64,000 nucleotides of DNA from an uncultured bacterium (lineage in GTDB: Bacteria > Oederibacteriota > PGYV01 > Palsa-1178), in contig CALAOR010000023.1 of NCBI GenBank assembly GCA_937889595.1, forward strand, positions 1 to 64,000. Direction: 5' to 3'. The position numbers and the translations under genes were made by a program. Under the pieces are notes generated by a model. The model worked only from the letters and a program-made list of their open reading frames with translations. It made no database searches and had not been told where the DNA came from. The stretch's first letter is position 1, and each line of letters starts with the position of its first letter. Shown here one piece after another: positions 45,596 to 64,000 of this stretch.

Positions 45596-46450
45596 CTACT
45601 TTTTTGCCTCAAGCAGTTCATTTATCTTCGCCATGTCCCTGGTTCTTTTGTATAAAGGCTCTTTGCCCGCCCTGTGCGCCGCCAGATTATCCTCAAATAC
45701 GGTTTTATTTTCATTTATGTAAAATATGCCGAGCGGCATGCGGTCTTCCTCAAGCGCGCGTTTAAAAGCGGTATTTTTATCCTTGGGGTCGTAATTATCT
45801 TCGAGAAAATACGTATGTTCCTTGAACCATTTATGGGTGTTTACCTTGTTGAAGGAAACACATGCCTGGAAAATATCTACAAGCGCAAAGCCTTTATGGT
45901 TTATCGCCTTTTTTATGATTTCCTTTGTCTTTTCAGGCTCTCCGACAGTGCCGCGCGCAACAAAAGACGCATCCAATGATATGGCCAGAGCAAGCGGGTT
46001 GATGGGTGTTTCTGATACGCCGTTCACCTGAATCGGGGTTTTAAACCCGATACGCGAAGTGGGGGACGCCTGCCCTTTTGTCAGGCCGTAAACCATGTTA
46101 TTGTGGACTATTACAGTTATATTGGGATTCCTGCGGATGGCGTGGATGAAATGATTTCCGCCCTCGCCGTACATGTCGCCGTCACCGCTTTCTATGATCA
46201 CGTTCAGGTTCGGATTTGCAGCTTTGATCCCAGCTGCCGGCGGCAAAGACCTGCCATGCAGGCCGTTAAAATAACTTACATTATAATATTGAGGGGCCTT
46301 GGCTGCCTGGCCTATGCCTGATAAATATACCACTTCCTCGCGCTTAAGATTAAGTTCCGCCAAAGCATTCAGCACTATATTGCGTATGCCGAAATTACCG
46401 CAGCCCGGGCACCAGGCTGTTTCGCCTTTACGGTCAAAAATATTGTCCAT
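45596..46450 (-). CDS. 2-oxoacid:ferredoxin oxidoreductase beta subunit (second copy)
   Basis: 284 residues. [38 protein letters not shown] (TPP/Mg motif) and [16 protein letters not shown]. It pairs with the fused gamma-alpha subunit 38 bases upstream, giving a two-gene enzyme distinct from korDABC. The substrate (2-oxoglutarate, pyruvate or another 2-oxoacid) is not evident. A proline-rich substrate loop ([17 protein letters not shown]) differs from korB. Confidence 0.9.
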
Positions 46451-46488
46451 AAATCCTCCATCATATAGTGTGCAATTTAAGTTGTTTA

Positions 46489-48219
46489 CTAACTTATCGC
46501 CTTGGTTATCTCTTCCACAGAAAATGGCATTCCATTATACTTCAGCACCCTATTTTTTATATCTATCCCTGTTTCCAGTTTTATCAGATCCCCGAACTGG
46601 CCTGTCTGGTTATTTTCTATGAGGATCAATTTCTTTGCTTTTTTCAGGTAAGCTGCTGTTTCTTTCGGCAAAGGATAAACCTGCGGGAAGTGCAGGAACG
46701 CAATGTCTTTTTTACCTGATATTTTCATCGCTTCAATGACAGTGTTATAATTGGAGCCCCAGCTCACAATAAGTGTTTTGTATTTCCCGGGACCGGTCAA
46801 TACCGGCTTTATAACATCTTTTTTAACCAGATTAAATTTTTTCATCCTCTTGTCCGCCATTGCCAGCCTTACCCCGTCCAAATCTTCCGTTATCCTGCCT
46901 TCTTCGTCATGTTCATCGGAATCAACACAGACTGTCCCGGTCCCGAACCCAGGCACGCCTCTTGGCGATATGCCGTCTTTGGTCAGGGCATATCTTTTAT
47001 AGGTTTCATTTGTTTCAATGATATATTTTTCCGCCGCCAGCCCGTCTGTTTTGATCTGCGGCAAATTGTAATATGAATCCGTAAAATACTGGTCCGTCAT
47101 GATAAATACAGGCACCTGATACTTATCCGCCAGGTTAAAAGCCTTCTGCGTAAGAAAAAACGCTTCTTTGACGTCGCCCGGGGACAATATTATCCTCGGG
47201 AAAAAACCGTGTCCCGCGTATAAAGCCAGGTTTAGATCACCCTGTTCTGTCCTTGTTGGCAGTCCCGTCGCCGGCCCCGGCCTTTGCGCCAGGTGCACCA
47301 CTATGGGCGACTCAATCGCGCCCGCAAGCGATAAGCCTTCTGTCATGAGCGCGAACCCGCCGCCCGAAGTTGAAACCAATGCCCTGCCTCCCGCGTACCA
47401 GGCTCCGAGCGCCATGTTCATGACGCCTATCTCGTCCTCCACCTGTTCCACAACAAGTCCCATTTTATCCGAATACCCGGCCAGCGCGGTAAATACACCC
47501 GTACCCGGCGTCATGGGATAGGCAAACACACTGTCGCAGCCGCCTGCCAAAGCACCGAGCGCCACCGCTTCGGAACCGTTTAAAAGTATCTCGTCTTTTA
47601 TTGAAGGGTCCTTTGTGATGCCGAATTTTATTATCTTATTTTTATAAAGTTCCCTTCCTATTGCGTACCCGCTTTTCGCGGCGTCAATATTTTTTGATGC
47701 TACTTCTTCCCCTTTTGAAATAAATTTCGCCCTGATATCCGCATACAGCTTTTCCTCTGATACGGCAAGTATCCCGCATATGGTCCCGATCGCCACTGAA
47801 TTTGAATAAATAGGATTGCCAAACTCGGATGCTATGCGCTGAAAAGGTATGTTCATTAATTTATTATCATGCACCTGCGTACTGTCGCCGATTATGACGG
47901 TCGCCGGGCCGATCCTTTTGGTAAGATGCACTATGGATTCGTCATTTAAGGGTATCAATAAGTCTATCCTGTCCGTATGCGACCTGACCCGGGCGGAAGA
48001 GATCCTTATTTCCGTCGAGTTGACCCCTCCCCTGACGCGGGACATATACTCTTTTGTGGCAAAAACATTAAAACCGTCATTTTTTATCGCCTTGACCAGT
48101 ATGGATTCTATGGACTGTATACCCTGGCCCGCTTCCCCGGCCAATACTATGATAAGTTCATTGGCCGGTACGGTTTCTTTTTTTACCCTGCTTTTTTGCT
48201 TTAAGCCTCTTTTTGCCAT
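46489..48219 (-). CDS. 2-oxoacid:ferredoxin oxidoreductase, fused gamma-alpha subunit
   Basis: 576 residues. The N-terminal gamma domain (about 20-200, [35 protein letters not shown]) is fused to alpha domains I and II ([58 protein letters not shown]). This is the two-subunit KorAB-like architecture typical of 2-oxoacid:acceptor oxidoreductases. It lies directly after rubrerythrin and may help supply or drain reduced ferredoxin. Confidence 0.92.
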
Positions 48220-52170: not shown

Positions 52171-52479
52171 TTAAACCGCGATAAAAATATCAGTTTTTGC
52201 TTTGAGCCCCATGGCAATTTTGCCGATTGTGTCAACTGTGATATTCTGTTCTCCGTTTTCAATTCTTGATACTTCCCCTTGGCTCATGTGAAGCAATTTT
52301 GCCAATCCCTTTTGAGAAATATGCCTTTTCTTTCTTGCTATCTGAACCTGCGCTCCAATCTTGTTTCTTAACTCCTCAACTTTATACTCTGCGTTAAACT
52401 CCTTATTTTTCATCTGAGTTTCAAGCCAATTATCAAAATATACCGCCTTTTTACCATGGGTCATTGTTTTAGTTTTCAT
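52171..52479 (-). CDS. higA: HigA-like antitoxin, XRE-type HTH
   Basis: 102 residues. C-terminal helix-turn-helix (about 45-95): QVQIARKKRHISQKGLAKLL, HMSQGEVSRIENGEQNIT. The N-terminal part (DNWLETQMKNKEFNAEYKVE) is the usual toxin-contact region of this antitoxin class. Its ATG overlaps the toxin TGA (ATGA). It probably binds the palindrome in the module's promoter. Confidence 0.88.
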   Translation of the reverse strand: MKTKTMTHGKKAVYFDNWLETQMKNKEFNAEYKVEELRNKIGAQVQIARKKRHISQKGLAKLLHMSQGEVSRIENGEQNITVDTIGKIAMGLKAKTDIFIAV

Positions 52480-52838
52480 AATATTATCTCTCCTTTTTGA
52501 ATTCTGTTGTTAAAATCATTCCTGCGCGCTTTTGCTGTTTCTATATCATTTCTATCTAGATCATTACGTTTCTTTTTGAAAGCACTCAGTAAAACTATCT
52601 TATTTTTGATACAAAAATAGTACAAAATTCTGAAATTATTTGGACTAAATTCTACTCTCATTTCATAAATGCCGTCTTCTATCTTTGCTGCTTTTGGCCT
52701 GTGCAATTGAAAACCTAATGTTTCCAATTCACTAATAGACCTGGCAATTTTTGCCCTTGTTTTTATGTCCTGTTCCATTAAAAAATCTTCAACATAACTT
52801 TGACCGCTTTTTGTCGTGTAAAAAATTGCTTTAAACAT
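52476..52838 (-). CDS. higB: HigB/Gp49-like (RelE superfamily) toxin
   Basis: 120 residues. MFKAIFYTTKSGQSYVEDFL, LHRPKAAKIEDGIYEMRVEF and FRILYYFCIKNKIVLLSAFK are typical of the phage Gp49-like HigB family, ribosome-dependent mRNA interferases. The toxin gene comes first and the antitoxin second, as in HigBA. The long tail (RRNDFNNRIQKGEIIL) is normal for the family. Confidence 0.88.
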   Translation of the reverse strand: MFKAIFYTTKSGQSYVEDFLMEQDIKTRAKIARSISELETLGFQLHRPKAAKIEDGIYEMRVEFSPNNFRILYYFCIKNKIVLLSAFKKKRNDLDRNDIETAKARRNDFNNRIQKGEIIL

Positions 52839-54306: not shown

Positions 54307-55470
54307 TTAGACAAGCCCTTCAGGATTTAAAACAGTCCCGCCTGTTTTCATGACTTCCTGCAATTTCTGATAGTCCACCGTATCGCCGAGAAGAATTGCT
54401 CCGCTGAGTTTCCCATCTTTTATGAATACCCGCTTGAAAACCCCGCCTTCGTGTTTTGTAAATACCCTGGTGTCAGCGTCTGCCTCGATATTTCCCATGG
54501 AGCCCAGGTCTATGCCCGCGACTTTGAGCTTTGCGGATAAAACGCTCCCTTTATATTCTGTTTTTTCCCCAGCCGCGTTCAAACCCGCCGCAGTGCCCTG
54601 TTCTTTCGCGGCCGGCCATATGCCATATACCATGCCGTTGTACTCGGTTACGTCGCCGCAGGCATAGATGCCGGGTATATTTGTTTCCATAAAATTATTC
54701 ACTTTTATCCCCTTATCCGCCGCGATATCCGTTCCTTCTATGATCTTCAGGTTACTCCGGATTCCGCTGGAAAACAGTATGAGTCCGGCCGTAAGGTTTG
54801 TGCCGTCCTTGAAATTCACGGTCAATTCATTTCCCGCGGCTGAAATTGTTTGCGCTTGTTTAGGAAGCATGAATTTAAGGCCTTTTGTCTCGAGCATGGC
54901 CCGCAGGATCGCTGCGCCGTCCATGTCAAGTTGCCGCGGGAGCAGTCTGTCAAAAAACTCGACTATCGTTGTCTGCAATCCCCTCGTGACAAGCGATACA
55001 GCGGCTTCTATGCCCAAAAGCCCTCCGCCGATAACTGCCGCTGTTTTTTTATCTTTTGAATAATTAATGACGGCGTTGGCGTCGTCTATGGTGCGCAGCG
55101 TAAAAACCCCGGGATTTTTCGAACCTTCAACCGGAGGTATGAAGGAATAAGCCCCGGCCGCTATTATTAACTTGTCATAGTTTTCTTTTGCCCCGTTTTC
55201 CAGGATAACTGCCCTGCCACCCGCATCGATTGATCTTACATTAACCGGGTATATAAGATTGATCCCGTTTATATCGTAAAATTCCTTTTTCTTTATTATT
55301 ATCTGTTCCTGCGTCACCCTGCCTGACAAAAGTTCAATGACACGCGGCCTTGAATAATGCGTGTACTTCTCGTCGCTTATCATGGTTACCGCTATTGAAG
55401 GGTCTTTTCTTCTGATACCCTCGGCCGCCGCTATTGCAGCCGCGCCGTTACCTATGATCACTATTTTCAT
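54307..55470 (-). CDS. FAD-dependent pyridine nucleotide-disulfide oxidoreductase (rubredoxin-reductase/NirB-N-term-like)
   Basis: 387 residues. FAD motif IVIIGNGAAAIAAAEGIR, NAD(P)H motif AAVIGGGLLGIEAAVSL, and the FAD/Asp motif GIYACGDVTEY. SDEKYTHYSRPRVIELLSG is typical of NADH:rubredoxin oxidoreductase and nitrite reductase N-terminal domains; no redox-active CxxxxC is present. It could deliver electrons to rubrerythrin or the flavodiiron protein, or act with the polyferredoxin whose gene ends 30 bases upstream. Confidence 0.88.
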   Translation of the reverse strand: MKIVIIGNGAAAIAAAEGIRRKDPSIAVTMISDEKYTHYSRPRVIELLSGRVTQEQIIIKKKEFYDINGINLIYPVNVRSIDAGGRAVILENGAKENYDKLIIAAGAYSFIPPVEGSKNPGVFTLRTIDDANAVINYSKDKKTAAVIGGGLLGIEAAVSLVTRGLQTTIVEFFDRLLPRQLDMDGAAILRAMLETKGLKFMLPKQAQTISAAGNELTVNFKDGTNLTAGLILFSSGIRSNLKIIEGTDIAADKGIKVNNFMETNIPGIYACGDVTEYNGMVYGIWPAAKEQGTAAGLNAAGEKTEYKGSVLSAKLKVAGIDLGSMGNIEADADTRVFTKHEGGVFKRVFIKDGKLSGAILLGDTVDYQKLQEVMKTGGTVLNPEGLV

Positions 55471-55500
55471 GAACCCTCCTGGTTTTCATCATTCACCTTT

Positions 55501-57048
55501 TTAAAACGGAAATGCCTTTATTTGTTTTACGTTCTGCTTCGTCCTGTCCGGTTTTTTTGCGATCCCGTGAATCGTTTTTGCCTGTACAGTTATAGCCTTT
55601 TTCGGCCTGGCCGGGCATACATGCTCGCATGCGCCGCAGCCTATGCACAGGTTATCTATCATTTTTGGTATTTCAAGGCCTTTTTTGCCGTAAGGCACCA
55701 TGGAGCACGCTTTTGTGGGGCAGTATTCATTGCATATGGTGCACTGCACGCTTTTTGTCTTGACCACGCACTTGCTCTCCTCGAATTTTGCCAGGCCTAT
55801 GGACGTGATCTTTTTCTCTTCAACAGTCAGCGGTTCTATGGCGCTTGTCGGGCATATATGGCTGCATATATTGCAGCTGTAATTGCAGTATGACGCGTCA
55901 TAATCCATCCTGGGCTGCATGACGCCGTCAATGCCGCTTTGTGACGACGCAGGGGTTAAGACTTTTGTCGGGCAGTTTGACACGCACATGTGGCAGCCTA
56001 TGCACCTGGACATGAAACGTTTTACGTTCTTTGACCCCGGAGGCGCTATGATATTATCCAGGCTGAGCGCGGTCAATCCCGAATCGATCTTTGCGAATAA
56101 TTTTGAGACTCCAGCCGTGTACAGGAGGGCGGCGCCAGTTCCGGCTGTTATTACGGCAATGGCATGCCTTCTTGTCTTTGCAAAATTTTCAGAATGAACG
56201 GGCACTGATTTCCGGGCATATTTAATTGCCCCAAATTTGCATGCGTCGACGCAGTTATAACAGCCCACGCACCTGGAAAAATCAAGTTCATGGTTTTTAT
56301 AGTCTATGCACTGCGACTTGCATGTTTTTTCGCACAACCCGCAGTTGGTACAGCTGTCCTTTATGATTTTCAATTTGTAAACCGAAATTGCGGCAAAAAG
56401 GCTTAATATGCCGCCAACAGGGCATAAGGTATTGCAGTAAATCCTTCCCTTCCACATTGACATCAATAATATCGCGGCAAAGAACCCGGCAATGCCAAAA
56501 ATAATCCCCAAACTTATGTAATGCATATTCATGGGCCTTACAAAGAAAATATCAAAAGTATTAAGTGCGTAAGCAGTGATGTTATTCAGGTAAACATAAG
56601 CGGGCCTGATCAGATCAACGGTTATTCTGCCAAAGTTTGCGAAGGGATCGGACATATTAAGCAAAACCATACTGCCGGTTATCATAAGTACAATAACAGA
56701 CGCAAGCATGACGTACTTGATAATGTTCAGCGGTTTATCAAATAAAAAAGGTCTCTTTAAAACCCCGGTCCTGTACTTTATGGCGCAGTCCTGCAGCGTT
56801 CCCAAAGGGCACAGGAACGAGCAGTAGGCCCTTCCGTATATGAGCGTGATAATTGATATCAAAATAAAACCCGCGCCGCCGCCCGCCAGAAAAGTCGCGG
56901 AAAATTCCAGGAATGAAGGGAAAAACTGGAAAGCTGTTATGATATGCGTGAAGTATTCATTCTGTTTTGTTAAAGCCATAAAGGCCCACAGGAACATGGA
57001 CAAAAACACCAGCGATGTGATCACCCTTATAGCCTTGAGTTTTTTCAT
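55501..57048 (-). CDS. NapH/NosR-like membrane polyferredoxin
   Basis: 515 residues. The N-terminal half has about five membrane helices with YGRAYCSFLCPLGTLQD and YCNTLCPVGGILSLF, the NapH/NosR-type Cys motifs. The C-terminal part carries six or more Fe-S motifs, including CTNCGLCEKTCKSQC, CVGCYNCVDACKFGA, CIGCHMCVSNCPTKV, CNICSHICPTSAI and CIGCGACEHVCPARP. A central helix (RRHAIAVITAGTGAALLYTA) resembles a twin-arginine segment, placing the last ferredoxin block outside the cytoplasm. It probably moves electrons across the membrane; partner unknown. Confidence 0.88.
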   Translation of the reverse strand: MKKLKAIRVITSLVFLSMFLWAFMALTKQNEYFTHIITAFQFFPSFLEFSATFLAGGGAGFILISIITLIYGRAYCSFLCPLGTLQDCAIKYRTGVLKRPFLFDKPLNIIKYVMLASVIVLMITGSMVLLNMSDPFANFGRITVDLIRPAYVYLNNITAYALNTFDIFFVRPMNMHYISLGIIFGIAGFFAAILLMSMWKGRIYCNTLCPVGGILSLFAAISVYKLKIIKDSCTNCGLCEKTCKSQCIDYKNHELDFSRCVGCYNCVDACKFGAIKYARKSVPVHSENFAKTRRHAIAVITAGTGAALLYTAGVSKLFAKIDSGLTALSLDNIIAPPGSKNVKRFMSRCIGCHMCVSNCPTKVLTPASSQSGIDGVMQPRMDYDASYCNYSCNICSHICPTSAIEPLTVEEKKITSIGLAKFEESKCVVKTKSVQCTICNEYCPTKACSMVPYGKKGLEIPKMIDNLCIGCGACEHVCPARPKKAITVQAKTIHGIAKKPDRTKQNVKQIKAFPF

Positions 57049-57054
57049 GCCCGG

Positions 57055-57984
57055 CTACATGTATATCTTTTTGATATTTAATTCGGACAGGTTCATGTTC
57101 CCTATCCCTTTTTCATGCGCGAGCCTTATATAGCCTATGTCTTTGGGCTCCACACCGAAAATCTTCGCCGCCGCCGCATCCGCGGCCACCGGGTCGCGGG
57201 ATAATATCTGGCTGCCCATCTCCACCACATCCTCAGGGGAAACCCCCCTGGGCCCGTTGCGGGTCATGACCCTGTACGCATCGACGACGGTAAGGTCGGG
57301 CTTCCTGAAAGCCGCAAAATCCGCTATACACTGGTGTATGTTGTTTGTGTGCCAGGCCGCGCGGTTCCATATGATGCCCATGTTGTTTTTCATCCCTATG
57401 GTAACTTTGGTCGAACCATGGTTTTTTAAGACCGGGACATTTATGAACACATCGCAGTCGGTTATAAGTTCATGCACTTCCGCGGTGGTGATTGCTTTGC
57501 CTCCCGGTATGATCTGCTTTTTATAATTTTCTTTCTTGTCTCCCGGAGCCATGATGCCGCCCGCGGATTTAACAGCCGCTTCAATACCGGAAGTTTTATA
57601 TGTGTCCGTCCAGTTATCGCAGGTGTGATCAAAAACAAAAACTTTCTTTGCGCCTGCCGCGTAACATTCCTTTATGATTGCCGTAACAAGACCGGGGTTC
57701 GTGTTTGCCGCGCCTTCCGGTGCGACATCCCAGCCTATGTTGGGCTTTACGACCACAGTCTGGCCCGGTTTCACAAAAGCTTTCATTCCGCCAAGGGCTT
57801 TTATGCCCGCGCTGAACATAGCAACAGGCAGGCCCCCCTTGACAGCCACTAATTCAGGGACATCGGCCAGGGACGGCTCTTTCTTTATCGCCGCAAAAAC
57901 CTTTTCAAACCCGCCAAACAATGATGCTGTGGCTGCAACAATACCGAACTGGATCGCTTTTTCGAAAAATTCCCTGCGGTTCAT
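57055..57984 (-). CDS. DUF362 protein with Tat-like signal
   Basis: The start is set at 57984 (MNRREFFEKA) with GGAGG 7 bases upstream; the longer frame is rejected. 309 residues. The N-terminus NRREFFEKAIQFGIVAATAS resembles a Tat signal. The DUF362 core: VVVKPNIGWDVAPEGAANTN, VFDHTCDNW, VPVLKNHGSTKVTIGMKNN, AAAKIFGVEPKDIGYI. DUF362 proteins have no settled biochemical role but often accompany Fe-S proteins. It lies 6 bases before the polyferredoxin gene. Confidence 0.88.
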   Translation of the reverse strand: MNRREFFEKAIQFGIVAATASLFGGFEKVFAAIKKEPSLADVPELVAVKGGLPVAMFSAGIKALGGMKAFVKPGQTVVVKPNIGWDVAPEGAANTNPGLVTAIIKECYAAGAKKVFVFDHTCDNWTDTYKTSGIEAAVKSAGGIMAPGDKKENYKKQIIPGGKAITTAEVHELITDCDVFINVPVLKNHGSTKVTIGMKNNMGIIWNRAAWHTNNIHQCIADFAAFRKPDLTVVDAYRVMTRNGPRGVSPEDVVEMGSQILSRDPVAADAAAAKIFGVEPKDIGYIRLAHEKGIGNMNLSELNIKKIYM

Positions 57985-58001
57985 GAAACACCTCCGTTTA
58001 T

Positions 58002-59033
58002 TTACCTGAATACCAGGATGATAACAAAATAAAATACCATAAGGCTTAAACCAAACAACACCCCTGCTTTTGCCCATTCCGAACTTTTTATCTTTAACTT
58101 ATTAGCCGCTATTATATTCGGTATGTTGCCCGGGATCAAAAGGCCGCCTGCTATGATCAAACCCATGAGCGCTGATTTTACCTGCGTAATATCCATACGC
58201 GGCCCCACTTCCGCCGCGGTTAATGTCGCGTTGTCAAGAGCGGCTGATATGATGTTCATCCAGTACAGCGCGTAAAACGGGATCTTTGATATGTACCCGT
58301 CTATGATCGGCTTAAAACCCGCGCCCAAAAGCACAAGAGCCATGACAAAAATATATACCTTGCCCGTTCTTATGAATATACCGCTGATTTTTTCATCTTC
58401 TTTTTCCTTTAACCCTTCGGCATGGCTGACCTTTTTAACCAGCAAAGCCGCCGTTATGCCGGTTATCAAAATACCGGGGATTATGTAAATCCACAGGTTT
58501 TTAAACAGGAACCAGAATCCCGCGAAATAAGGCGCCCCGCTTAACTTGGCAACCGCGATAGTCCCCAAAGGCTCGCCCATGGGCGTCAAAGCCGCGCCCA
58601 TGCCTATGGAAAAACAGGAAAAAACAACCATCAGTATTTCATTCTTTTTGTCGAGCTTTAAATGCCCCACTATCTCAACCAGCACAAGCGCGGCTATGAT
58701 CGCGGTTATCACGCTGGAAAAAAGGCCGAGTAAAACAACAACAAGAAAAATAAACCATCTTACCCCGGTTGCCTTTAAAATATTATTCACATGGCCGTCG
58801 ATTGAGCTTTTAAGAACCCTGAACAACAGCCCGGCAACCAGTACAGCAGCGGTTATTTTTATGGGGTCCGCCAGTGCTTCCGCAACCAGACTTAAACTCC
58901 ACTGGCCTGTAAAAGTTACCGCTAACAGGCCCATGATGAACAGAAATATTTCAAGCTCCTTTTCGACAACATGAACGGCAAAAGGGAGGACTAGGACAAG
59001 CAAAAGAATTATGAACAAACCTGTTATTACCAT
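58002..59033 (-). CDS. DUF1646 membrane protein, putative cation transporter
   Basis: The start is set at 59033 (MVITGLFIILLLVL) with GGGAG 5 bases upstream; the longer frame runs into an intergenic repeat. 343 residues with about ten membrane helices. Conserved segments GMGAALTPMGEPLGTIAVAK and ISAALDNATLTAAEVGPRMD recall the ArsB/NhaD ion-transporter superfamily, where Asp/Asn in the helix breaks bind Na+. Its gene is 17 bases from the DUF362 gene, suggesting an ion-coupled redox operon. Confidence 0.85.
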   Translation of the reverse strand: MVITGLFIILLLVLVLPFAVHVVEKELEIFLFIMGLLAVTFTGQWSLSLVAEALADPIKITAAVLVAGLLFRVLKSSIDGHVNNILKATGVRWFIFLVVVLLGLFSSVITAIIAALVLVEIVGHLKLDKKNEILMVVFSCFSIGMGAALTPMGEPLGTIAVAKLSGAPYFAGFWFLFKNLWIYIIPGILITGITAALLVKKVSHAEGLKEKEDEKISGIFIRTGKVYIFVMALVLLGAGFKPIIDGYISKIPFYALYWMNIISAALDNATLTAAEVGPRMDITQVKSALMGLIIAGGLLIPGNIPNIIAANKLKIKSSEWAKAGVLFGLSLMVFYFVIILVFR

Positions 59034-59067: not shown

Positions 59068-59201
59068 TAGAGATGGGCTCTTGTCCGCCAAAGCTTCAGC
59101 GGAGGCGGGTACTCCCTCTCACCACGGCTTTGAAAAGCCCTGTTCACAACAACGTCTTTTGCCAAACCTCTGCGATGAGAGGGGGCAAGCCCCCTCTCTA
59201 C
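59068..59201. mobile_element. GTAGAGA MITE-like element
   Basis: 134 bp with 11-bp terminal inverted repeats, GTAGAGATGGG (59068-59078) and CCCCTCTCTAC (59191-59201), one mismatch. The right part holds a perfect 10-bp hairpin GAGAGGGGGC-AA-GCCCCCTCTC (59177-59198) and the left part CCGCC ... GGCGG. No coding capacity. It lies just upstream of the DUF1646 start and contributes the false N-terminal extension of that frame. Confidence 0.7.
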
Positions 59202-59656: not shown

Positions 59657-61081
59657 CTACTTCACAACCGCCGCCTTCATAACCCCTGACGCGTGTTCCC
59701 CGCGGCTTGTTGATGCCTCAATCCTGTATATGAAAACACCGGATGCAACGGGCTTTACTGCCCTGTTCTTTCCATCCCAATAAATGCTGTTATATCCTGC
59801 TTTACCGGCTATATCTTCCTGCCACCTTACAATCTCCCCTGATACGTCAAATATTTTTATCTTAACATCCGCATCCACTGAAAGTTTATAAACTATCTGG
59901 GTGTCGCGGATAAAAGGATTGGGGAAATTGCCCTTTAACTCCAGTATAAGAGGAAGCGGAGTTGCGGTAAAAGTCGGGGTCATGGTCTGCGTTGCCGTAA
60001 TGGTGGGCGTGATTGTCGCGGTATAAGTGTCGGTAAAAGTCTGCGTTACGGTAAAGGTCGGCGTGTCCGTGAAAGTTGGTGTCACTGTGAACGTCGGTGT
60101 TACAGACGGTGTGGCGGAAAAAGTCGATGTTCCCGTAAATGTCGGAGTGGACGTATTGGTCCAGGTCACAGTGGGAGTGTCGGAAAAAGTCATGGTTCCC
60201 GTAAATGTCGGAGTGGACGTAATGGACGGTGTTATAGTGAACGTAGAACTGAAAGTATACGTCGGTGTAATTGTCGGCGATATAGTGACGGTTTCCGTTA
60301 TAGTATGCGTCGCGGTGATAGTGCCTGTCGGTGTCATGGTTGAAGTCGGGGCGACTGTCATGGTAAAAGTCGGGGTGGTTAAAAGCGCCTGTCTGTTCAG
60401 CCCGTAATAAGTCACAAACGAAATACTCTGCCCGGGGTTGAGTGGGAATCCGGGCGAGGTTTCGTTCCCGTTGCACCACCATAAAACCACGGCGCTGTCA
60501 TTCCCGATCACACCGGCCGGAGACAAGGACCACTGGCCCGGTGCGGCAACCCCCACCCAGTTCGCTATCTCCATTATATCCGGTTCCGTCGCAGGCTCAT
60601 CATATGGATTGTTTTTTGTGTACCCTCTTCCCACAAGCGTCGGGGTGCCGGGCGGCGGAATATCATAATCCCACCAGTCCGGCTTTATCTGGTTTAACGA
60701 TTTATAATAAACTGTATTTGTTGTGATAAAGTTAAAGCCGTTGTCCACAGAAATATTTGCACCGTCGTTGGTGAGCACTTGCGTATCCAGTTCCAGCCTG
60801 AGAGCTACAGTACTTGTAACGGCTGTTGTGTTTTTCAGGGTATATTTGATCTTGGCCGTATCCTGGGGTGAGCCGGCAGGATTATTTACAATTTCCCAGT
60901 CTGAACTGACATCTATACCCGCATAATCCAATTTGGCGTTTACGGTCAAAACCTTCCCCATAAAACAAAACCTCGCGTCAAGCTCAAGCATAAACCACTT
61001 TACCCTCTCCACCAGCCGTTTTTCAAGCTTCCTTTCAAGAACAGATTTAGTGAATACCAAGAAAACCCAGATTATAAACAC
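59657..61081 (-). CDS. Exoprotein with Thr-rich linker and FlgD-like end, N-terminus replaced by nuclease debris
   Basis: 474 residues as read. Residues about 45-230 are an extracellular beta domain (VNAKLDYAGIDVSSDWEIVN, LDTQVLTNDGANISVDNG, PGQSISFVTYYG). About 232-375 is a Thr-rich linker. About 378-474 is a FlgD-like sorting domain (KGNFPNPFIRDTQIVYKL, SGVFIYRIEASTSRGEH) almost the same as at 17508. There is no signal peptide. Residues about 12-43 (KSVLERKLEKRLVERVKWF, MLELDARFCFMGK) instead resemble the C-terminal YhcG/DUF1016 nuclease region. The gene is probably a 5'-truncated fusion and may not be exported. Confidence 0.65.
   Translation of the reverse strand: MFIIWVFLVFTKSVLERKLEKRLVERVKWFMLELDARFCFMGKVLTVNAKLDYAGIDVSSDWEIVNNPAGSPQDTAKIKYTLKNTTAVTSTVALRLELDTQVLTNDGANISVDNGFNFITTNTVYYKSLNQIKPDWWDYDIPPPGTPTLVGRGYTKNNPYDEPATEPDIMEIANWVGVAAPGQWSLSPAGVIGNDSAVVLWWCNGNETSPGFPLNPGQSISFVTYYGLNRQALLTTPTFTMTVAPTSTMTPTGTITATHTITETVTISPTITPTYTFSSTFTITPSITSTPTFTGTMTFSDTPTVTWTNTSTPTFTGTSTFSATPSVTPTFTVTPTFTDTPTFTVTQTFTDTYTATITPTITATQTMTPTFTATPLPLILELKGNFPNPFIRDTQIVYKLSVDADVKIKIFDVSGEIVRWQEDIAGKAGYNSIYWDGKNRAVKPVASGVFIYRIEASTSRGEHASGVMKAAVVK
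59960..60385 (-). repeat. Low-complexity DNA coding a Thr-rich linker
   Basis: About 140 codons of near-repeats such as TFTGTSTFSATPSVT and TPTFTDTPTFTVTQTFTD. The opposite strand and third frame give spurious Val-rich or His/Tyr/Asp-rich ORFs. Confidence 0.8.
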
Positions 61082-61187
61082 TCTTCATGGACTCATCAAC
61101 CTGTTTCGCCAGATGCATAGGCATAGCCTTTGCATAATTGTTGGATTTTTTATCCTTTTTTACGTGCGTATAAGCGTCGGTGGTCAT
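60953..61187 (-). pseudogene. Decayed YhcG/DUF1016-type nuclease remnant
   Basis: A 46-codon frame starts at 61187 behind GAGGAGG (MTTDAYTHVKKDKKSNNYAK) and stops after NLGFLGIH at 61047. The next frame continues KSVLERKLEKRLVERVKWFM, LELDARFCFMGK. Read through a frameshift, FLGI followed by the LEKxLxxxxxxFxLELxxxFxFxG pattern matches my memory of DUF1016 proteins (FLGL ... LExaLixxixxFLLELGkGFafvG). The N-terminal 35 residues are not clearly part of that family. Confidence 0.45.
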
Positions 61188-61424
61188 CTATGCCTCCTCA
61201 AAATGAATTAGCCTAGATTTTACCACCTTTTGAACAGATAATTATAATTGTCGTTTTCGGGAGTTTTAATTGTCATCAATCAGACATAGGCCACAAACAA
61301 AATAGGTTCGTTGATAACCCCAGATTTCCTGCGCAGGTTCCTTACCGAAATGGTCTTTGGATTTTATTTACATATAATCATTATGTTGTTGTATTTGGTT
61401 ATATGACTACGAGTTTACTCTTGC

Positions 61425-64000
61425 CTAAGGCGTCTGCGTTGGCACAGGCGTACAGGAACCGCAATTTTCGTTATACCGCCACAATGTCATATCATAACCA
61501 TTTGTAACTCCAAATATCACTAAGCCGCCCGTTGTCACGATCTTGCCGTAATTCGCCCCGCTGCCCGGATAATTATTGTAAACTGCGGACTTCATCGAAT
61601 GATCCATCGCACCCGCCGCGGTTGTATAAGACACTATATTGGTTCCATTGCCAAATGACAAATCCGGCGTGCCGTCCGCGAAGTACCTAGCCATGAACAT
61701 TATGGGCAGATATGACGCATCGAACGCGTACCCGGTTGCCACCACCCTGCCGCATGTATCTATCAATATCCCGGCTCCGTCTTCATATGATCCGTTCGAA
61801 TATATCTTGGGAGAGACCCATGACTGGTTGCCGTTTTGATCAAATTTGTATATCACCATGTCATCGTCAACGCCATTACTCATGCTTCCTGCTACGTAAA
61901 TATAATCATTTTTGTCGATTGCAACGGCATTACCGTAAGCATATCCCGAATTGTTTACGGTTTTTGGCCATCCGGATTGCAGCGTCCCCGTTTCGCTAAG
62001 TTTCCATAAAGCAATTTCGTAACCGGAGCCGCCATATATATAACCCGCAATATATATCTTCCCAGTCGAATCCACAGCTATGCCGCCCGGCGTAGGATAG
62101 GTGGACGACACGACTACTACCACGCCATTTGTTCCAAAAGTTGTGTCAACCGACATCGTAACCAGGTCATACCTGATGACAAATAAACTTGTGCCGCCCC
62201 CGCTGATATTGCTTGTCCCGGTAATCAGGATTTTTTCATGCCCGTCTGAAGACGCCGTGTAGGAAAATATTCCCGTAACCACGTCTGTGTTATTGGCGTG
62301 GTCGTTTATGAGGTCATCCATGTTCAACACCAGCGTGCCCCCGGTACCGGGGACATACTTCCAGAGCGCCAGATTTGCACTATAATTCGGGTATGCCGGC
62401 CATATGATTCCCACGACCCATATATTTCCCGACAGATCTTTTGTAATATCAACACCCCTGCTGCTGTCGCATGTATATGGCACAGTCACATTGCCGGAAT
62501 TATCGGTTTTCCATAACGCCATCTTGTTCATCGGATATTGACCGCTTATGGCTGTGGAACCGGTTACATATATGTTATTATCACTTCCTATGACAACACT
62601 GCTCCCTTTGTCCTGCGTGTAGCCTGCCCCGCCCGCGCCGTCATTGTTCACATAGCCATTTGACCCAAATCCGGCGTCAAGCGAAACACAATTGGTAACC
62701 ATTGTAGGGGTGATAGTCGGGGTCGGTAGAACGTTTATAGTCAAGTCTAAATTATATTGTTCAATAATATCACTTGAATTAAAAGGAGTTACTAAAACAT
62801 AATAAACACCTGCATCTAAAGTCACAGATATTTTGGAATAGTAATTAGCACCACCATCATCGTCAGTTATTATTGGATCACCCGACATATTATTACCGGA
62901 ATAAAGCGTTAGTACCGTATCATCATCACCTGTTCCCGAAGTTTCCAGTACAACGTCTGAACGGTAAGTTAATTCAAATTTAACCCAGTCATGATCACCG
63001 GCGGGCATTATACTATGCACCTGGCGCGTGCCGCCTGTAATAGTACTGGCGTTCAAATATGAACCGTCATCCTCATAAGCATCAAGTACAAGAGTAGGTG
63101 TGGTTGTAAATGTCGGGGTTGATGTCAGGAAAGGTGTTGTTGTGTATGTGCATGTCGGTGATATAATAAGTGTATTTGTGTACGTGGGTGTAGCAGTATC
63201 CACAAATGTAGCCGAATCGGTTATAGTAGATGAATATACAGGTGTTTGCGTCAGAGTTAGTGTTTCTGTTCCCGTATTTGTTAAAGTTGGAGTAATAGAT
63301 GGAGTAATATCAAAAAACTCCACCTTGTCAACCCATCCACTGTCATCAAGATCGCTGTCGCTTTCATCTTTGGCATATTCCCATCTTAAAGTATGTAATC
63401 CGGGCTTAAGCACAAATTGCATATTTTCCCAGTCAATTGAACCGCTTATTTCACCCAGATTTTCATCATCAACATAAAATAATAAGTAGTCATATGCTGC
63501 TTCCGACGCAACCTTCCAATAGAAACTCAATATTTTGTAATTATTAAAATTTACGGTTGTTTGCATAAATGTATTATCGTTATCTCCGATTCTCCCGCTT
63601 ACAGCCGAAGTCCCGCCAAAATATGCTGTAAATGTGTCAACTGTCCATTCCATACTTCCACCTGTATACCAGTCCGAGCCGGTATATTCAACCGCCGCGC
63701 CAAGTCCATATGCCGCAGTTGAAGTCTGTGTAACTGTAAAAGTAGGTGTTATTGTAGTTGTAAAAGTATTTGTGACTGTAAACGAATAAGTTTGTGTCGA
63801 AGAATAAGTAGCAGTAAGGGTAACGGATACCGTGGATGTGAGTGTCCTACTTGGTGTAATCGTCGGCGTGAAAGATATGAATATTGTTTTTGTGTATGTT
63901 GGAGTATAGGTTAGTGAAATCGTAAATGTTTTTGTTATAGTTGTTGTTGGTGTAGACGTTTGAGTCCGTGTTCTGGTTGGAGACGCCGTAAAAGTTTTTG
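61425..64000 (-). CDS. Giant modular exoprotein, 5' end beyond the window, no sorting domain
   Basis: The frame stays open past the window edge, so it is at least 857 residues and the ATG at 63653 is internal. In order: a Thr-rich linker (upstream of about 63720), a galactose-binding-like domain (about 63680-63320, GSDWYTGGSMEWTVDTF; FYWKVASEAAYDYLLFYV), a second linker, a pre-peptidase C-terminal-like domain (about 63085-62750, DAYEDDGSYLNAST; GDHDWVKFEL; AGVYYVLVTP), and a propeller of delta-60/SBBP-like repeats (FGSNGYV, SDNNIYVTGS, KDLSGNIWVVGI). It stops at TPVPTQTP without the linker and end domain of its relatives. Confidence 0.82.
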   Translation of the reverse strand, partial: KTFTASPTRTRTQTSTPTTTITKTFTISLTYTPTYTKTIFISFTPTITPSRTLTSTVSVTLTATYSSTQTYSFTVTNTFTTTITPTFTVTQTSTAAYGLGAAVEYTGSDWYTGGSMEWTVDTFTAYFGGTSAVSGRIGDNDNTFMQTTVNFNNYKILSFYWKVASEAAYDYLLFYVDDENLGEISGSIDWENMQFVLKPGLHTLRWEYAKDESDSDLDDSGWVDKVEFFDITPSITPTLTNTGTETLTLTQTPVYSSTITDSATFVDTATPTYTNTLIISPTCTYTTTPFLTSTPTFTTTPTLVLDAYEDDGSYLNASTITGGTRQVHSIMPAGDHDWVKFELTYRSDVVLETSGTGDDDTVLTLYSGNNMSGDPIITDDDGGANYYSKISVTLDAGVYYVLVTPFNSSDIIEQYNLDLTINVLPTPTITPTMVTNCVSLDAGFGSNGYVNNDGAGGAGYTQDKGSSVVIGSDNNIYVTGSTAISGQYPMNKMALWKTDNSGNVTVPYTCDSSRGVDITKDLSGNIWVVGIIWPAYPNYSANLALWKYVPGTGGTLVLNMDDLINDHANNTDVVTGIFSYTASSDGHEKILITGTSNISGGGTSLFVIRYDLVTMSVDTTFGTNGVVVVVSSTYPTPGGIAVDSTGKIYIAGYIYGGSGYEIALWKLSETGTLQSGWPKTVNNSGYAYGNAVAIDKNDYIYVAGSMSNGVDDDMVIYKFDQNGNQSWVSPKIYSNGSYEDGAGILIDTCGRVVATGYAFDASYLPIMFMARYFADGTPDLSFGNGTNIVSYTTAAGAMDHSMKSAVYNNYPGSGANYGKIVTTGGLVIFGVTNGYDMTLWRYNENCGSCTPVPTQTP
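63720..64000 (-). repeat. Low-complexity DNA coding a Thr-rich linker at the window edge
   Basis: About 93 codons rich in Thr with Ser, Pro and Tyr, in frame with the exoprotein. A second linker lies at about 63090-63310. Codon bias towards ACA differs somewhat from the ACC/ACG/ACT mix of the linkers near 1-6 kb. Confidence 0.75.

Follow-up and report, generated by a model that had tools for sequence, protein, structure and literature searches.

The stretch of DNA considered here (the window) comprises the first 64,000 nucleotides of contig CALAOR010000023.1, from an uncultured bacterium of the phylum Oederibacteriota. Towards its end, four intact genes follow one another on the minus strand. 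They encode a DUF1646 protein predicted to transport ions, a DUF362 protein, an iron-sulfur membrane protein (polyferredoxin), and a flavin adenine dinucleotide (FAD)-type oxidoreductase resembling NADH:rubredoxin reductase (NROR) (Table 1). None of the four reading frames contains an internal stop, and the gaps between them are 17, 6 and 30 bases, so the original prediction of four genes in close succession holds. For DUF362, the best start is the ATG at 57984, which is preceded by GGAGG; a longer reading frame starting at 58077 overlaps DUF1646. Comparison with related genomes shows that the arrangement is not due to chance and that its conservation is unequal from gene to gene. The four genes are two modules that meet, not one conserved chain: the first consists of DUF362 and the polyferredoxin, and the second begins with the FAD enzyme.

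Table 1. Features of the locus and of the adjoining cluster (window coordinates; aa, amino acids).
Feature	Position	Strand	Basis or remark
DUF1646 gene	59033-58002	minus	PF07854 match, E 4e-114; 343 aa, predicted ion transporter
DUF362 gene	57984-57055	minus	PF04015 match, E 5e-52; 309 aa
DUF362 His189 to Lys199	57388..57420	minus	Both invariant in 13 homologues
Polyferredoxin gene	57048-55501	minus	13 Fe-S Pfam models; 515 aa
Two predicted cytosolic [4Fe-4S] clusters, residues 233-270	56239..56352	minus	Cys motifs
Internal Arg-Arg (293-294) and fifth helix, Tat-type signal anchor	56107..56172	minus	Alignment, hydropathy, family precedent (PMC5449189)
Four predicted periplasmic [4Fe-4S] clusters, residues 349-478	55615..56004	minus	Pfam and Cys motifs
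C-terminal Phe-Pro-Phe tail of polyferredoxin	55504..55512	minus	Sequence comparison
FAD/NAD oxidoreductase gene, NROR type	55470-54307	minus	Pyr_redox_2, E 2e-55, and Rubredoxin_C, E 1.5e-16; 387 aa
Ferritin	51764-51270	minus	Oxygen-defence module
Bcp	51127-50651	minus	Oxygen-defence module
FprA	50639-49458	minus	Oxygen-defence module
Desulfoferrodoxin	49263-48868	minus	Oxygen-defence module
Rubrerythrin	48833-48258	minus	Oxygen-defence module
KorA/KorB 2-oxoacid:ferredoxin oxidoreductase, closing the syntenic oxygen-defence cluster	45596..48219	minus	Comparison with relatives

The DUF362 and polyferredoxin genes are adjacent, with DUF362 first, in nine genomes of the order. These are the window's own genome (G000, an assembly of 3.42 Mb that is 99% complete), a genome of the same genus (G001), one from another genus of the same family (G002), and G004, G005, G006, G007, G009 and G013. 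In G010 the two genes are split over two contigs. The same adjacency can be found elsewhere in the phylum (G018 and G040), in another phylum (G056), and in Parabacteroides distasonis, where the gap is again 6 bases and the identities are 46% and about 36%. The polyferredoxin type itself is already known (eLife 2017, PMC5449189). A search that covered titles and passages for DUF362 turned up no publication on the pairing of this type with DUF362 or on co-occurrence with TatC, and a literature search combining DUF362 with Parabacteroides gave no match. The pair is a widely shared, unstudied variant of the NapHG-fusion type.

In families f2 to f5 (the window's own family being f1), the pair lies directly behind tatC, a component gene of the twin-arginine translocation (Tat) pathway, mostly with MscS before tatC. 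The genomes with tatC directly upstream are G004, G005, G006, G007, G009, G010 and G013; the region beyond it in G005 and G013 encodes a histidine kinase and a sigma-54 response regulator. Apart from a second copy in G006, tatC outside f1 is always the gene found in this cluster. Among the 15 nearest genomes TatC occurs exactly where the pair occurs (10/10 with the pair, 0/5 without), a match expected by chance once in 3003 if genomes were independent, which these are not.

The polyferredoxin is a natural fusion of NapH and NapG, with five transmembrane helices predicted from hydropathy. Its best NCBIfam matches are the NapG and NapH models, both below the curated cut-offs for the separate proteins, and its Pfam content consists of Fer4_5 repeats and C-terminal dicluster domains. 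All six cysteine sets for [4Fe-4S] clusters that were originally proposed are found, at residues 233-243, 260-270, 349-359, 388-399, 427-443 and 468-478. Two CxxxCP motifs stand beside helices, at 76 and 205. A twin-arginine motif, within KTRRHAIAVITAG (residues 291-303), stands directly before a fifth helix (296-314) of lower hydropathy. Arg294 is invariant in the alignment (n=7), and most homologues have RR or KR at this place, with RK in G001 and RA or RG in two distant ones. A C-terminal Phe-x-Phe tail is present in 11/11 polyferredoxins of the clade (the order plus P. distasonis) and in 0/9 others. All 11 tail-bearing proteins are linked to DUF362, although in G010 the link is by contig ends only. 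A search of genome contigs with the polyferredoxin returned one close relative (PMTB01000231) and a remote archaeal match.

The DUF362 protein begins with MNRREFFEK, a Tat-type twin-arginine signal. Its predicted structure (pLDDT 85.7) resembles that of the LarA superfamily: all 19 of the 19 matches in the Protein Data Bank (PDB) at E<=1e-3 are chains of this superfamily. PDB sequence searches with DUF362 or DUF1646 gave nothing useful. According to PMC11770544, DUF362 and LarA belong to one Pfam clan; that of LarA is CL0471. His189 and Lys199 are 10 residues apart. In LarA from I. pallida the same distance separates His173 from Lys183, the residue that binds the cofactor (PMC11851776). In an exhaustive ungapped profile scan of DUF362 against LarA, the register that pairs these residues is the second-best diagonal, and its block 177/158 ranks ninth of 112,684, after eight offsets of one other diagonal. 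Lar_N (PF09861) matches neither the DUF362 protein, which matches PF04015 only, nor anything in its genome. LarC (PF01969) is absent from 10/10 near genomes that carry the pair, which makes a nickel-pincer enzyme unlikely; DUF362 probably does not use the nickel-pincer cofactor.

Taken together, these features suggest that DUF362 and the polyferredoxin form a functional core, a Tat-dependent conduit that would carry electrons from the cytosol to a periplasmic protein. This is the reading we prefer and hold to be probable, though by no means secure. By sequence, the NapH-like membrane part, with four helices, bears two cluster sets of cytosolic type, followed by the (R/K)R motif, the weakly hydrophobic fifth helix and the remaining four sets. 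Insertion of the fifth helix by Tat would leave these last four clusters facing the periplasm. Electrons may enter the cytosolic clusters from ferredoxin or quinol and cross the protein to the exported DUF362 protein, which would dock on the polyferredoxin, perhaps via the Phe-x-Phe tail, and act as a periplasmic oxidoreductase. DUF1646 would be an accessory gene of ion or pH homeostasis, with MscS or tatC in its place elsewhere. To this extent the membrane redox path to the periplasm that had been predicted is borne out by gene content: a Tat-type DUF362 protein and a NapHG-fusion polyferredoxin that are syntenic in relatives.

MqnA was not found in the window's own genome, and MenD gave nothing above cut-off in the 15 genomes, so ferredoxin would be a reasonable electron donor. 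The window's own genome contains an operon with NrfD, which suggests that some quinone may be present in the host. A scan for CxxCH motifs in about 321 kb of this genome (under 10% of it) revealed no multi-heme cytochrome.

Related polyferredoxins can be found with other partners. In Bacteroidota, NapHG-fusion polyferredoxins lie beside aldo/keto reductase genes (L159 5998-11995, L160 5998-8929). In G056, DUF6599, DUF362, a polyferredoxin and a Tat-type aldo/keto reductase stand in one run (L041 7991-13101), which unites both pairings. Within the window's own genome, a polyferredoxin paralogue on contig C77 lies near FMN_bind, DOMON and porin-like genes. At this locus (L010 8705-15184), FMN_bind carries an SGATITS motif and two DOMON proteins are encoded beside one porin-like protein; it has the look of a system of its own for external electron transfer. 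Given such neighbours, the wire appears to be modular, with exchangeable external partners; they also fit the picture of a general wire to exported redox proteins.

A number of observations weigh against the preferred reading. The co-occurrence counts ignore phylogeny, and some of the genomes are incomplete. A molybdoenzyme operon with NrfD adjoins the single tatC gene of the window's own genome, so the main client of TatC in this genome may be a protein other than DUF362. Evolutionary distances of DUF362 and polyferredoxin in the order correlate strongly (mirror-tree r 0.92), but those of NROR correlate with both as well (0.77-0.86), so the value is no special evidence of partnership. Three of the nine tail-less polyferredoxins, those of G018, G040 and G056, are themselves linked to DUF362. 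The TM-scores between DUF362 and LarA chains are modest (0.38-0.52, query-normalised), hhalign produced no full alignment of the two and left the His/Lys site unaligned, and the correspondence of the sites is drawn solely from the ungapped scan and the fold match. Finally, DUF362 has no cysteine cluster motif of its own and no known bound cofactor.

In a different role, DUF362 might serve the polyferredoxin as a partner in assembly or cofactor loading, with another protein or a small molecule as the acceptor. Apart from the His/Lys pair it shows no recognisable cofactor site, a ferredoxin domain is built into some DUF362 proteins (one is encoded in the window's own genome, at L044), and polyferredoxins have other partners where DUF362 is missing, all of which would fit such a role. 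Export of DUF362 and its pairing in distant phyla would speak somewhat more for a partner in electron transfer than for a maturase, and an assembly role seems unlikely to us. A more specific form of the conduit reading can also be stated, in which the clade's DUF362 proteins would be exported redox enzymes of LarA fold, holding a non-nickel-pincer cofactor at the His/Lys site and reduced by the wire through Phe-x-Phe docking, and Tat would be kept in these lineages mainly for the pair. As a whole, this version is speculative and would more probably fail than hold.

At the TatC gene of the window's own genome (contig C88, L085 3953-14701), ApbE, Hpre_diP_synt_I, NusG_II, FMN_bind, the sole TatC and a molybdoenzyme/NrfD/Fe-S/delta-subunit operon are found side by side.

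The two outer genes of the locus were originally thought to belong to the same system. All four proteins would then form one ion-coupled chain, in which the FAD enzyme feeds electrons from NAD(P)H to the polyferredoxin and DUF1646 couples their transfer to ion flow. The tight gene spacing in the window's own genome agrees with this, as would a link of DUF1646 to the pair in a second genus. In G002, a kinase, a regulator, DUF1646 and MscS as far as reference residue 242 stand at the end of one contig, and a second contig opens with MscS at residue 247 and continues with DUF362 and the polyferredoxin. The two contigs do not overlap, but the MscS halves fit a single gene, which makes the order DUF1646-MscS-DUF362-polyferredoxin probable there. 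The link of DUF1646 to the pair is thus confined to two genera; in the window the gene precedes the pair directly. It lies away from the pair in G003, G004, G006 and G009, the last three of which carry the pair and count against a shared chain. The model of the protein is also of low confidence (pLDDT 61.6), and its weak matches (E 0.008-0.05) are to VcINDY, NaDC1 and ArsB, carriers of the Na+/dicarboxylate and ArsB type. Some DUF1646 genes are under the control of a Na+ riboswitch, and some of the proteins are predicted Na+/H+ antiporters (PMC9337991). The link to the pair may be relevant to regulation or ion balance.

A Na+ riboswitch (DUF1646 motif) was considered as a candidate upstream of DUF1646 and rejected, since neither the window nor the region upstream of the gene gave a match to Rfam. 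Scans of the window for promoters and terminators found sites no more numerous than in shuffled sequence. A GC-rich hairpin, GAGAGGGGGCAAGCCCCCTCTC, lies at 59177-59198 between DUF1646 and the gene for a secreted-type protein upstream, and is a possible terminator or repeat element. The genes upstream of DUF1646 (59657-63998) encode large Ser/Thr/Pro-rich proteins of secreted type, the nearer of which has a FlgD_ig domain at its end.

The FAD enzyme argues more strongly against a single chain. Its domain set (Pyr_redox_2 and Rubredoxin_C) and its closest solved relative are of NROR type, and reduction of rubredoxin with NADH is predicted for it. The best PDB match is 3klj (E 2.6e-57), an entry listed as a NirB-family NAD(FAD)-dependent dehydrogenase, which we take to be the C. 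acetobutylicum NROR structure. Away from the pair, the gene heads a cluster in G002, G003, G005 and G010 that contains ferritin, Fur, Bcp, FprA, desulfoferrodoxin and rubrerythrin in varying completeness; KorAB follows in two of the four, and the genes upstream are others. A link of NROR to FprA, desulfoferrodoxin and rubrerythrin is found in G002 (no desulfoferrodoxin called), G003, G005, the window and the same-genus genome. In the window the downstream order is NROR, ferritin, Bcp, FprA, desulfoferrodoxin, rubrerythrin, KorA and KorB; genes for a sulfatase-modifying-factor-like protein and for a Gp49/HTH pair break the series. The latter (52171-52838) combines a Gp49-like (DUF891) protein with an HTH protein and is of toxin-antitoxin type.

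The FAD gene is also kept in G003, G008 and G011, all of which lack the pair. It is linked to the pair in a single genus: in the same-genus genome it again lies downstream, which would agree with a common chain, but across a gap of 257 bases. From its domains and neighbours, the FAD enzyme is predicted to serve the adjacent oxygen-defence module as its NADH:rubredoxin reductase; its gene came to lie behind the pair in the window's genus. A chain fed by this enzyme from NAD(P)H is not supported, and a single ion-coupled chain of four proteins is very improbable. As for the conserved gene order originally expected, DUF362-polyferredoxin is conserved, DUF1646 accompanies it in two genera and the FAD gene in one, so the lack of synteny originally named as a refutation applies to the FAD gene; the ion-transporter part survives as a weak positional link.

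The same neighbourhood raises the question of whether the pair itself serves oxygen defence. It could remove a periplasmic oxidant, for low-potential clusters in the periplasm might supply an enzyme that reduces peroxide or the like; a shared function would then account for the place of the pair ahead of the NROR-FprA-rubrerythrin cluster. This juxtaposition is confined to the window's genus, however; NROR persists in the three genomes that lack the pair, and in other families the neighbours of the pair are MscS, tatC and sensor kinase genes. We regard such a function as doubtful.

DUF362, a domain of unknown function that occurs widely, becomes a testable system through its conserved pairing with a dual Sec-Tat iron-sulfur wire. 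A LarA-like fold in the absence of the LarA cofactor pathway adds to this, as do the exact match with TatC occurrence among the near genomes and the presence of a copy in a gut bacterium in culture. The reading of the FAD enzyme is corrected to oxygen defence.

Several known systems resemble parts of the locus. The FAD gene and its conserved neighbours FprA, desulfoferrodoxin and rubrerythrin recall the NROR-FprA2-desulfoferrodoxin system of C. acetobutylicum (Kawasaki et al. 2009) and its NROR structure (Nishikawa et al. 2010), both as cited in PMC9364112. The present cluster differs in also including ferritin, Fur, Bcp and KorAB. The window yielded no gene for a free rubredoxin; a rubredoxin-like domain is carried by rubrerythrin. 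DUF362 shares with the LarA superfamily (CL0471) its predicted fold and the spacing of the invariant His and Lys, whereas its Tat-type signal, its iron-sulfur membrane partner and the lack of LarC in the ten near pair-bearing genomes set it apart.

The NapGH quinol dehydrogenase of periplasmic nitrate reductase is similar in domain content and in predicted electron flow to a periplasmic partner. Here, in contrast, the two parts form a single chain, the partner is DUF362, no NapA or NapB is encoded nearby, and no menaquinone marker was found. In flavinylated electron-transfer systems, NapH-type wires likewise combine with differing external partners (Meheust et al. 2021, PMC8238504). The paralogue on contig C77 has an FMN_bind neighbour, as in those systems, whereas the pair in the window has no flavinylated subunit.

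The closest likeness in architecture is to PFD of MLMS-1 (Q1NSB0), a NapH-NapG fusion whose topology and dual Sec/Tat insertion have been demonstrated (Tooke et al. 2017, PMC5449189). Both are fusions with five helices, a twin-arginine-type motif just before the fifth, and cytosolic clusters together with four external ones. PFD has three predicted cytosolic clusters, whereas the window protein has two cytosolic cluster sets and the CxxxCP motifs; the Phe-x-Phe tail is a further difference of the window protein, and DUF362 is not mentioned in PMC5449189. By analogy with PFD, we infer that the C-terminal domain of the window polyferredoxin is translocated by Tat, for which the co-occurrence with TatC provides indirect support.

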